NCBI RefSeq assembly: GCF_002300555.2
Contig: NZ_NTHN02000055.1
Coordinates: forward strand, 1-40,020
Source: Alloyangia mangrovi
GTDB lineage: Bacteria; Pseudomonadota; Alphaproteobacteria; Rhodobacterales; Rhodobacteraceae
Direction: 5' to 3'
Length of the DNA: 40,020 nucleotides
Shown: positions 25,302 to 34,175 of the stretch, in pieces
How the letters are laid out: the number at the start of each line of letters is the position of its first letter
Position numbering within the stretch: the stretch's first letter is position 1
Program-made: the position numbers and the translations under genes
The notes under the pieces: generated by a model
Told to the model about the DNA's origin: nothing
Database searches by the model: none
Seen by the model: the letters and a program-made list of their open reading frames with translations, nothing else

Positions 25302-25331
25302 TGTGATCACACTTGAAAAAGCGTGATCACA
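25302..25331. promoter_or_regulatory. Twin GTGATCAC palindromes upstream of sdhC
   Basis: TGTGATCACA (25302-25311) and CGTGATCACA (25322-25331), with centres 20 bp apart and the A/T-rich spacer CTTGAAAAAG. They lie 121-150 bp before the sdhC start. An almost identical pair lies at the same distance before sucC (34034-34064). The spacing of about two helical turns suits two dimers of one repressor or activator. The regulator is unknown. Confidence 0.7.
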
Positions 25332-25447
25332 TTTCCGGCGCTAACGGCATCTTCCGCAGAGTCGCCTTATTCCCAAGTGTTTAACTCGGATTTCGCCGGC
25401 GCAGCATCGCGACTCAACACGGATCACACCCCGGCCGCCGCGACAGA

Positions 25448-26480
25448 TCAGCGCGGGATCAGCGCCCAGTAATCGAGGTCGAGCAGAACCTCCGGCAGAT
25501 ACTTTCCGTCGGCGCCCTTCAGCGCGAAGGGCGCCCCTCCGCGGGTCGCCACCAGCCGCAGCCGCAGCGCGCCGATGCCGGGTGCCGGGGTCTCTGCCCG
25601 GTCCAGGACCTCGGACCAGACCTTGACGGTATCCCCTGCAAAACAAGGGTTTGCATGCGCCCCGCCGTTGAGCCCGACGATCATCTGCGCGTTCGCCAGA
25701 CCGTTGAAGCTGAGCGCCCGCGCCAAGGAAATCACATGCCCCCCCGTAGATCAGCCGCTTGCCGTCCTCGCGATGGGTGGCGTCGAAATGCACCTTGGCG
25801 GTGTTCTGCCAAAGACGGGTGGCGAGCATGTGCTCGGCCTCCTCGATGGTCACCCCGTCGACGTGGTCGATCTGCTCGCCGACTGCGTAATCGCCCCAGC
25901 GATGCGGCTCTCCGGCAAGGGGGAAATCGTAACTGCTGAAGTCGAGGCCCGCAGGGATCACCAAATCTTCGGGTGCAAGCGCCTTCTTCAGCTCGGGCAG
26001 GACCGTCTCGGGCGCGGGTGCGCCTGGATCCTTCTTCCGCACCATCACCCAGCGGCAAAACTCCAGCACGGTCTCACCGCGCTGGTTGGTGCCGCGCGTG
26101 CGCACATAGACGACACCCGATTTGCCATTGGAGTTCTGCTTGAGCCCGATCACCTCGGAGGAGGCGCGCAGCGTGTCCCCCGGATAGACAGGCACCAGCC
26201 AGCGCCCCTCGGCATAGCCGAGGTTTGCCACCGCGTTCAGCGAGACGTCGGGCACGGTCTTGCCGAAAACCAGGTGGAACGCCGCCAGATCGTCCAGCGG
26301 CGCGCCGGGCAGACCAACGCTCCGGGCAAACTCGTCCGAGGAATAGAGCGCATGCCGGGCCGGGTAGAGCGCGTGGTAGAGCGCCCGCTCCCCGCCCGAG
26401 ACGGTGCGCGGCACGGCGTGGTCCATGACCTCGCCGATGCGGTATTCCTCGAAGAAGCGCCCGGGGTTGGTCTTGGCCAT
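25448..26480 (-). pseudogene. mch: Mesaconyl-CoA hydratase, frameshifted at a 7-C run
   Basis: In the ethylmalonyl-CoA pathway it hydrates mesaconyl-CoA to (2R,3S)-beta-methylmalyl-CoA. The protein starts MAKTNPGRFFEEYRIG at 26480, with the tandem MaoC-like hotdog domains FGKTVPDVSLNAVANLGYAEGR and VDGVTIEEAEHMLATRLWQNT (in part). The frame breaks at seven Cs, 25739-25745. Removing one base joins RLIYGG to HVISLARALSFNGLANAQ and gives a complete 343-aa protein ending LDLDYWALIPR, the length I know for Rhodobacter Mch. It overlaps the DUF1737 gene by one base and lies in one cluster with mcl2. I regard the gene as functional and the extra base as an error. Confidence 0.92.
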
Positions 26481-26683
26481 CACTGAGCTCCCAGTTTCAT
26501 GTCCGGCGTGTAGGGGGTCTCGATGTCCTTGGTCACGGCCTGTCCGCAGCGCATCACGCCATTGGCCGCATCGAAGGCATAGGTCGGGCTGCCGTAGAGC
26601 TCCCAGCCCTTGCTCAGGGCCTCGGACACCTTGTGGCAGAAGGCCGAAGTGTCATCCTCGGTCAGCAGTCGATAGATTTTCAT
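26480..26683 (-). CDS. DUF1737 domain protein
   Basis: 67 aa from the ATG at 26683. MKIYRLLTEDDTSAFCHKVS, then SKGWELYGSPTYAFD is the DUF1737 pattern, a small alpha/beta domain of unknown function. Its stop codon shares one base with the mch start. The same small gene accompanies mch and mcl2 in Rhodobacter as far as I recall, so a link to the pathway is possible but unproven. Confidence 0.8.
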   Translation of the reverse strand: MKIYRLLTEDDTSAFCHKVSEALSKGWELYGSPTYAFDAANGVMRCGQAVTKDIETPYTPDMKLGAQ

Positions 26684-26705
26684 GAGTCTCGTTCCGGTAG
26701 TTAGC

Positions 26706-27251
26706 TCATCCAAAGGTCGGGTAGCCGAGCCAGGTGTGGATCGCGCCGATCACGAAGAGCAGCACTACACTGGCCCCGGCAAAGACCAGGTCCTTCTTGA
26801 TCTCGCCCTTCGGCGGCGGTGTCCACTGCGGTTCGCTGCGGTTGATCGTGCTCATCTCGACCAGTGCCCAGATCCCGAGCCCGCCGAAGAGCACGAAGGA
26901 GGGCGTGTCGCCGTTCACCAGCAGGTGGGCGATGGCCCAGAGCAGGAAGCCGGTCAGCATCGGGTGGCGCATCTTGTAAAAGAGCGCGCCCTTCTTCGGG
27001 CCGGGCGAGGTGAAATAGAGCGCCGCCAGCATCAGCAGGTTGTTGATCCCGACCGTGGCCGGGGTGCGCCCGTAGAAAAAGGCGCCATCGGCCATGCGGT
27101 AGCCGAAAATCATCAGTATCACGCTGACGAGCAGGGCGAGCGCCACCACGCCCTTGCCCTTGTCGCCCATCTTCGCCCGCGCTTCCGGGGCGAGGCGTTT
27201 GAACAGATGCGCCGCCCACCAGAGCGCGACGCCGAGAATCAGAAGCAGCAT
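26706..27251 (-). CDS. NnrU family integral membrane protein
   Basis: 181 aa with about five membrane helices. MLLLILGVALWWAAHLFKRL, MRHPMLTGFLLWAIAHLLVNGD and the C-terminal AIHTWLGYPTFG match the NnrU family; the conserved RHP(M)L and AHLL(V)NGD suggest a lipid or heme-linked membrane enzyme similar to isoprenylcysteine methyltransferase-like folds. NnrU was named in denitrifiers, but no nitrogen-oxide genes are nearby. The place between mcl2 and mch argues for another role. Function unknown. Confidence 0.88.
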   Translation of the reverse strand: MLLLILGVALWWAAHLFKRLAPEARAKMGDKGKGVVALALLVSVILMIFGYRMADGAFFYGRTPATVGINNLLMLAALYFTSPGPKKGALFYKMRHPMLTGFLLWAIAHLLVNGDTPSFVLFGGLGIWALVEMSTINRSEPQWTPPPKGEIKKDLVFAGASVVLLFVIGAIHTWLGYPTFG

Positions 27252-27290
27252 TGGGGGTCTCCTCTTGCCGGGTCCGCCCCGAGCCTGCCC

Positions 27291-32643: not shown

Positions 32644-32739
32644 CACAGAAAAGAATCGCCTGATTGCCTGTGAATGCGGCATTTTGCGCGCGCAGGTTGA
32701 AGCGATCCGCGGCCCGACAGGTCCAGAGGGGCGCAGAAA

Positions 32740-32756
32740 GCATACCCTCGCATACC
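32740..32756. promoter_or_regulatory. GCATACC direct repeat upstream of mdh
   Basis: GCATACC at 32740-32746 and 32750-32756, exactly 10 bp apart (one helical turn), 156-172 bp before the mdh start; TAACACA also occurs twice just after. It may be a regulator site. There is no GTGATCAC in this gap (32644-32911), so mdh seems to be controlled differently from sdh and suc. Confidence 0.35.
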
Positions 32757-32911
32757 GGCGCTAACACACCGAAACTTAACACATTTACCGCAACCATGCC
32801 GCGTGGTCAGCAATCGAGCTTCCGTGATGCTGCTCCGCAGCGCCCTTGCGCGTCGGCGGCAGAGACCTTACGCAAGCGGCGGACTTCACAAATGGAGCGG
32901 AGAACAGATCC

Positions 32912-33874
32912 ATGGCCAGACCCAAGATTGCCCTCATCGGCGCGGGACAGATTGGCGGCACGCTTGCACATCTCGCGGCCCTGAAGGAACTCGGCGACGT
33001 CGTGCTCTTCGACATCTCGGAAGGCACGCCGGAAGGCAAAGCGCTCGACATCGCGGAATCCGGCCCCTCCGAAGGCTTTGACGCGAAGCTCAAGGGCACC
33101 CAGGACTACGCCGACATCGCGGGCGCAGACGTCTGCATCGTCACCGCCGGCGTGCCGCGCAAGCCGGGCATGAGCCGCGACGACCTGCTGGGCATCAACC
33201 TCAAGGTGATGAAGTCGGTCGGCGAAGGCATCAAGGAAAACGCTCCCGACGCATTCGTCATCTGCATCACCAACCCGCTCGACGCGATGGTCTGGGCGCT
33301 GCAGAAGTTCTCGGGCCTGCCCGCGCACAAGGTCTGCGGCATGGCAGGCGTGCTCGACTCGGCGCGCTTCCGCCACTTCCTGTCGGTGGAATTCGACGTG
33401 TCGATGAAGGACGTCACCGCCTTCGTGCTCGGCGGCCACGGCGACACCATGGTGCCCTCCGTCCGTTACTCCACCGTCGCCGGCATCCCGCTGCCGGACC
33501 TGGTCGAGATGGGCTGGACCACGCAGGAGAAGCTGGACGCGATCGTGCAGCGCACCCGCGACGGCGGCGCCGAGATCGTCGGCCTGCTGAAGACCGGCTC
33601 GGCCTTCTACGCCCCCGCGACCTCGGCCATCGAGATGGCGGAAGCCTACCTCAAGGACCAGAAGCGCGTGCTGCCCTGCGCCGCCTACTGCGACGGCGAG
33701 TTCGGCCTGAAAGACATGTACGTGGGCGTGCCCACCGTGATCGGCGCCGGCGGCATCGAGAAGATCGTGAACATCAAGCTCAACAAGGAAGAGCAGGAGA
33801 TGTTCGACAAGTCGGTCGCCGCGGTGAACGGCCTGGTCGAAGCCTGCAAGGGCATCGACGGCAGCCTGGCGTAA
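32912..33874 (+). CDS. mdh: Malate dehydrogenase (NAD)
   Basis: 320 aa, of the LDH-like class found in alphaproteobacteria. Oxidises malate to oxaloacetate. The NAD-binding loop is [13 protein letters not shown] with the acidic residue in VVLFDISEG. Substrate Arg are in [13 protein letters not shown] and ARFRHFL, and the catalytic His is in [10 protein letters not shown] (about residue 176). A rho-independent terminator follows, so mdh is separate from sucC, unlike arrangements where they form one operon. Confidence 0.98.
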
Positions 33875-33910
33875 GCCCTGCCGGTGCCCACACGGGCACC
33901 AACAAATTTC

Positions 33911-33947
33911 GGGCCCCGGCAGCAACAGCGCCGGGGCCCTTGCTTTT
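33911..33947 (+). terminator. Rho-independent terminator after mdh
   Basis: Perfect 10-bp stem GGGCCCCGGC (33911-33920) with GCCGGGGCCC (33930-33939), then TTGCTTTTT. It ends the mdh transcript before the sucC promoter region. Confidence 0.88.
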
Positions 33948-34175
33948 TCGGTCTTCGCATTTCGCCTTCCGCAACGGCAGGACGCTGATTCTTTCGACGT
34001 GAGACGGCAATGGGATTTCACCACGACCGAGTTTGTGATCACGCTTTTTGAGCGCGTGATCACAACGGCAAGAAAATCTCGCAAATCTTCGCCGAAAGCC
34101 AAAAATCCCTTCGCACGAGGCGAACGACGCGCGTATACCGGCCGCGAAATCGCAGCAAGACGGGAAGAGTCTTCC
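33948..34175 (+). promoter_or_regulatory. sucC upstream region with twin GTGATCAC palindromes
   Basis: The palindromes are TTGTGATCACG (34033-34043) and CGTGATCACAA (34055-34065), centres 21 bp apart, with spacer CTTTTTGAGCG. They lie about 110-143 bp before the sucC start. The pattern mirrors the pair upstream of sdhC. The rest of the region shows no gene; short A-rich stretches (AAAATC, AAAAATCC at 34072-34109) may include the promoter. Confidence 0.7.

Follow-up and report, generated by a model that had tools for sequence, protein, structure and literature searches.

The closest described counterpart of the element analyzed here, a pair of GTGATCAC palindromes (a twin) upstream of both sdhC and sucC in Alloyangia mangrovi, is the regulon of AkgR in R. 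(Cereibacter) sphaeroides, a GntR/FCD protein that we take to be RSP_0981. In the parts of the literature drawn on here, GTGATCAC is given among the AkgR sites and AkgR is called a transcriptional activator (PMC6365646, citing Imam et al. 2015), and a prediction for the GntR protein RSP_0981 names sucCD, sdh and the genes for 2-oxoglutarate dehydrogenase as its targets (PMC4344238). The twins of A. mangrovi lie in the window, that is, the whole 40,020-nucleotide stretch of contig NZ_NTHN02000055.1 under analysis, and, as far as these excerpts extend, they share with that regulon both the motif (PMC6365646) and the targets sdh, sucCD and 2-oxoglutarate dehydrogenase (PMC4344238). The twins are part of the known AkgR regulon, and it is very probable, taking the reading as a whole, that they are operators from which two AkgR dimers, aligned on the same side of the helix, activate sdhC and sucCD-sucA from upstream.

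E. coli McbR controls a different regulon and shows only distant homology to AkgR. Its structure (PDB 4p9f) is the best solved match by sequence, with E-values of 3.4e-22 for the AkgR of the window genome and 1.5e-23 for the family profile. Atu1419 of Agrobacterium fabrum, a tetrameric FCD/VanR-type GntR regulator, belongs to the FCD family like AkgR, and the portion of PMC7797058 used here describes one dimer per 10-bp palindrome and two palindromes per protein assembly, to which we liken the twin. According to the same portion, the palindromes of Atu1419 lie 190 or 109 bp from each other and the protein represses, with a proposed DNA loop, whereas those considered here are separated by 20-21 bp and sit upstream of the promoter (PMC7797058). 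PS417_07240, a GntR protein of Pseudomonas simiae that is 32% identical to AkgR, is a proposed GTGATCAC binder; it belongs to a deoxyribonate oxidation cluster, for which the excerpt of PMC6365646 describes one palindrome at -47 to -40. No description of a 20-21-bp GTGATCAC twin was found among the listed titles and abstract openings of the literature searched, with the primary 2015 AkgR paper outside its scope. The idea of a single regulator, put forward in a first-pass annotation of this DNA, is right but not new; the strict two-turn register, a third copy in register and the phased A/T tracts may be the new parts.

Twin palindromes upstream of sdhC and sucC

Based on sequence match and footprint, the predicted AkgR sites upstream of sdhC lie on the minus strand at 25303..25310 (proximal) and 25323..25330 (distal), 20 bp apart, and those upstream of sucC on the plus strand at 34035..34042 (distal) and 34056..34063 (proximal), 21 bp apart. 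Relative to the start codons, the sites begin at -149 and -129 for sdhC and at -141 and -120 for sucC. The first-pass annotation had placed the twins and their centers exactly, as it had all six copies of GTGATCAC in the window, in-gene singles included; dinucleotide shuffles lead one to expect 0.42 copies, and none of 100 shuffles held more than 3. The in-gene single copies have mixed or G/C flanks (cgGTGATCACgg, atGTGATCACcg). The statement of the first-pass annotation that pairs occur only in these two gaps holds for the entire 5.53-Mb genome, in which GTGATCAC-N10-16-GTGATCAC was found exactly twice, both times in the window. If the 245 single copies present genome-wide were placed at random, simple arithmetic would give about 0.02 pairs with centers 20 or 21 bp apart.

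The first gene served by the sdh twin is sdhC (24789..25181, minus strand), the first succinate dehydrogenase gene, followed downstream by sdhA (22585-24384) and sdhB (21488-22264), all assigned by Pfam. On the other side, sucC (34176..35369, plus strand) is followed by sucD (35449-36333) and, after sucCD, by the 2-oxoglutarate dehydrogenase gene sucA (36408-39446), as assigned from Pfam and open reading frames.

In a less strict search of the window genome, degenerate twins with a 13-base spacer and at most three mismatches occur at 150 places; among the matches listed, the next best after sucC have two mismatches and G/C-rich spacers, and the search was uninformative. A longer single-site pattern, TTGTGATCACAA, searched with one mismatch allowed, was found at one place (C92:2360, L327); the four sites in the window do not fit this pattern, their inner flanks being different. 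On word usage in general, the reversed word, which holds the rare CTAG, occurs once in this genome against 245 copies of GTGATCAC, an abundance that perhaps stems from GTG-ATC-AC codon runs.

Conservation was examined in a family sample of 198 genomes from 197 genera. A genome-wide scan found an exact 20/21-bp pair in 174 of them, with two pairs in 133 genomes, one in 38 and three in 3 (hand count of rows), and the reversed-pattern control gave 0 in every row. SucC was matched in 187 of the 198 genomes, 120 of which were fetched with up to 20 kb around SucC and make, together with the window, 121 loci; they were chosen by hand, mainly in listing order, with some short contigs skipped and the lowest-ranking SucC matches left out. 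In each locus we looked at the 300 bp preceding sdhC, sucC and mdh and called an inexact twin degenerate when neither half had more than one mismatch; sdhC was missing from 17 loci, and mdh, or enough sequence before it, from 10. The first-pass annotation had staked its proposal on conservation of the pair in relatives, and exact twins were indeed found upstream of sdhC in 93 of 104 loci (8 degenerate, 3 none) and upstream of sucC in 117 of 121 (1 degenerate, 3 none). As it had also noted, mdh has no pair; a twin was found within 300 bp upstream of mdh neither here nor in the 110 other loci (0/111).

Of the 210 exact twins, 186 have a spacing of 21 bp and 24 one of 20 bp. Within the 2.36 Mb of loci there are 211 pairs of GTGATCAC at these two distances, every other distance up to 130 bp being seen at most three times, and the runner-up among all 256 eight-base palindromes has a single pair at 20/21 bp. 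A twin is also present at each of the 11 sdhC or sucC promoters that fall within 80 named akgR loci (10 exact, 1 degenerate); 9 of the 16 named loci with sucC ended short of its promoter. In a class-wide sample the twin occurs in 4/4 members of the family and in 2/285 other genomes, one of these two with a G/C-rich spacer, and in the corresponding control one genome (G271) gave five reversed-pattern matches and zero true matches. The twin is a real, specific and conserved regulatory element for which a chance origin is refuted, and the exact-pair spacing is kept in most genera of Rhodobacteraceae.

The twin is tied to operons and not to a chromosomal place. In G001, G063 and G093, sdh lies far from suc, yet the sdh twin is kept, and in G177 (L318, G177:C4:87000-106000) a twin stands in the mdh-sucA gap, about 60-90 bp ahead of sucA, while the only strong sucC match lies elsewhere and has no twin. 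A third twin in G042 (L319:4294-4322, G042:C16) precedes a class II fumarase gene by about 125 bp. The proposal that the TCA (tricarboxylic acid) cycle segment from succinyl-CoA to fumarate is controlled together is supported and refined by these layouts, in that the predicted regulon also takes in sucA via the suc operon and, in one genus, fumC, which adds the step of the cycle that comes next. Three copies of GTGATCAC at 21-bp steps precede sucC in G135, G191, Pseudotabrizicola sediminis and a Gemmobacter nectariphilus metagenome-assembled genome (L155, L159, L260, L269). In four loci (L064, L070, L075, L089), one further GTGATCAC stands alone 56-57 bp upstream of the sdhC distal site.

AkgR as the predicted regulator

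The regulator of the twins is most likely AkgR, as judged by comparison of sequences across genomes. The reference for this comparison was G051, which is Cereibacter sphaeroides: one of its plasmid contigs matches records of strain 2.4.1 at 100% identity, and a second small contig is without a match. In the 20-kb sdh-suc region of G051 the only GntR-like open reading frame found ends about 0.75 kb past sdhB, and it was taken as RSP_0981 because its position fits the tag order, an assignment by position and not by locus tag. Twins 21 bp apart precede both sucC and sdhC in G051, whereas the sdhC twin of A. mangrovi has 20-bp spacing. Another difference is that akgR lies beside sdh in G051 and on another contig in the window genome, where the ortholog (G000:C129:18986-19636, minus strand) is 74% identical to the G051 protein and has the domains PF00392 (GntR, 9.7e-15) and PF07729 (FCD, 6.4e-17). 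This fits the layout of the FCD group of the GntR superfamily, in which a winged helix-turn-helix at the N terminus is joined to an FCD domain made of helices throughout.

An AkgR homolog was found in 185 of the 198 genomes at E <= 1e-25. With presence set at E <= 1e-50, a cut chosen after the values had been seen, the twin occurs in 171 of 177 genomes with AkgR and in 3 of 21 without (Fisher 1e-17, a test that ignores shared ancestry). Both AkgR and the twin are missing from G048 and G167, whose nearest relatives in the SucC tree, G062 and G140, have both; as far as this one-gene tree tells, the two co-losses look independent. The proposal that one regulator acts on both promoters is strongly supported by the footprint, by the co-occurrence and co-loss of the twin with one GntR/FCD protein, and by the AkgR literature in the parts drawn on (PMC6365646, PMC4344238).

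Several observations, together with the late choice of that cut, weigh against this assignment. Pairs occur in G019, G096 and G114, where AkgR has no strong match, G096 being 77% complete, and six genomes (G040, G147, G166, G122, G061, G155) have AkgR without an exact pair. Of these six, G040 carries degenerate pairs, completeness is 71-73% for G147 and G166 and 76% for G122, and G061 and G155 are unexplained. The genomes lacking AkgR, mostly low in the SucC similarity ranking, may come from a few old lineages. Finally, G032 has AkgR and a sucC twin and none within 300 bp of sdhC, although its genome holds two pairs.

No exact GTGATCAC was found within 1000 bp before akgR in the window genome, and there is no sign of autoregulation by the exact site. 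In an alignment of 112 fetched AkgR copies, some genes having been fetched twice, N138, H142, H185 and D207 are invariant and are candidate pocket residues. FCD domains have a D-H-H-H metal site, to whose canonical ligands these four residues may correspond. A structure model of an AkgR relative (L303) has a helical C-domain; its quality is mediocre (mean predicted local distance difference test 72, predicted template modeling score 0.42), and it was not used further.

Promoter architecture and proposed mechanism

The family consensus has T before and A after GTGATCAC as outer flanks. The commonest bases of the sucC twin read TTTGTGATCACAC-(A/T-rich)-GTGTGATCACAAA, and the whole element is therefore itself a rough palindrome; the inner flanks of the sdhC twin are less fixed than those of sucC across the family loci. 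The A/T character that the first-pass annotation had ascribed to the spacers stood in part: read on each gene's own strand, GCTTTTT is common to the sdhC and sucC spacers here, while across the family only the A/T-rich middle and edges are kept.

Downstream of the twins, a putative -35 hexamer of sdhC, GTGACA, lies at 25237..25242 on the minus strand (family offset, position read from the sequence). In 67 of 93 sdhC loci, a TTGACA-like GTGAC begins 58-60 bases beyond the proximal site. For sucC, a weak putative -35 element, TTCGCA, lies at 34110..34115 on the plus strand. Its offset is the one at which TT[AGT]A is most frequent across the family, and in 53 of 117 sucC loci TT[AGT]A begins at positions 47-49 beyond the proximal site. 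If these putative -35 elements are true, the site centers would fall at about -99 and -120 (sdhC) and about -87 and -108 (sucC) from the transcription start. An additional GCGCCAA...ACCGCG element recurs in some of the sdhC promoters, about 23 to 40 bp after the proximal site, with a GCGCCAA-like word at 23-25 in 27 of 93 loci, and is possibly another regulator's site.

Between twin and promoter, A/T tracts recur in a phase of about 10 bp (25243..25302 on the minus strand for sdhC, 34064..34109 on the plus strand for sucC), a family-wide pattern and not a property read from this single sequence. The A/T column profiles of this interval have their period peaks at 10.25 bp (sdhC) and 9.5 bp (sucC), and among exact-twin loci the phasing is individually significant in 65 of 93 for sdhC and 83 of 117 for sucC, with phase coherences of 0.85 and 0.84. 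Just upstream of the twin the corresponding values are 13 of 93 and 13 of 117, with coherences of 0.34 and 0.31; in the window, this control stretch for sdhC overlaps an open reading frame. When loci were aligned by start codon, the best 53-bp stretch was phased in 66 of 104 for sdhC, 86 of 121 for sucC and 24 of 111 for mdh. Several of the phased columns are A+T-rich without a single prevailing base. Phasing could be common to other strong promoters, the comparison having covered sdhC, sucC and mdh.

The fixed register, the upstream position, the phased A/T tracts and the published activator role point to stacked AkgR dimers on bent DNA and to activation from upstream. In the proposed mechanism, each GTGATCAC, with its T-rich and A-rich outer flanks, would bind one AkgR dimer, and two dimers, separated by two turns of the helix (20 or 21 bp), would occupy the same face of the DNA, probably cooperatively. 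We infer such paired dimers by analogy, from the fixed register together with the one-dimer-per-palindrome structure of another FCD regulator in the portion of PMC7797058 used here. The pair would sit about 46-60 bp upstream of the putative -35 element, with helically phased A/T tracts connecting the two, and the bent DNA between twin and promoter would serve upstream activation. By contacting RNA polymerase, AkgR would help it to initiate transcription of sdhC and of the sucCD-sucA operon, and the enzymes leading from 2-oxoglutarate through succinyl-CoA and succinate to fumarate would rise together. That AkgR acts in this way in A. mangrovi is, likewise, what we infer.

Alternative readings and significance

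Many GntR/FCD regulators are repressors, which lends some weight to the view that AkgR, or another protein, acts at the twins as a repressor and not as an activator. The FCD relative Atu1419 does repress through paired palindromes, according to the portion of PMC7797058 used here. Repression is unlikely, given that the twin ends about 46-60 bp upstream of the putative -35 element without promoter overlap, that AkgR is called an activator in the text drawn on from PMC6365646, and that the A/T phasing between twin and promoter would fit activation. The possibility that a different FCD regulator binds the twins draws on the abundance of GntR/FCD proteins in the window genome (46 FCD matches), one example being a FadR-type GntR protein (ortholog G000:C98:9417-10163), which was found in 2 of 120 fetched stretches, several kb past sdhB. 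The FadR-type protein of L096/L110 had been the first AkgR candidate and was dropped, as it tracks the pair less well across the 198 genomes. It was found in 144 of the 174 genomes with the pair, leaving 30 in which it was not found, and in 8 of the 24 without the pair (3 of them weak; Fisher 1e-6 from a hand-drawn table), whereas AkgR is present in 171 of the 174. With the literature tying GTGATCAC to AkgR and none found that ties it to a FadR-type protein, we regard this substitution as quite improbable.

CRP/FNR operators have the geometry TGTGA-N6-TCACA. Use of the site by a cAMP-receptor/FNR-type regulator is suggested by TGTGATCACA, which resembles the halves TGTGA and TCACA, and both halves are present in the family consensus with its outer T and A; since the halves adjoin directly, without the 6-bp spacer, the geometry of a CRP/FNR dimer is not matched, this candidate was rejected, and we give such a regulator hardly any chance. 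Among the classes named by the first-pass annotation, GntR fits, with AkgR as its member, and a Crp-type protein is unlikely for the missing N6 spacer. The frequency of GTGATCAC in the genome might suggest that the twins are accidental or a by-product of its general excess. That view is next to impossible to maintain: the pair is unique to two promoters in the genome, is conserved in 174 of 198 genomes and is absent from mdh, and each of the other 255 eight-base palindromes has at most one pair at 20/21 bp.

Operation of the twins by AkgR as an upstream activator is accordingly the reading that we retain, and it can be carried one step further. We tentatively propose, as a possibility somewhat short of an even chance, that more than 150 genera share a composite module in which two or three stacked AkgR dimers, in a tetramer-like arrangement, are combined with phased A/T tracts that would bend the DNA onto RNA polymerase. 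If true, the phased DNA would belong to the operator just as fully as the palindromes do, as a structural code for TCA-cycle flux that is invisible to motif searches. The twin also offers a clean natural system for studying the effect of operator register and phased DNA on activation, and a ready marker of AkgR targets in unstudied genera. For the family, control by AkgR over the central part of the citric acid cycle would be a widespread and highly specific trait, exerted mostly through two operators per genome.

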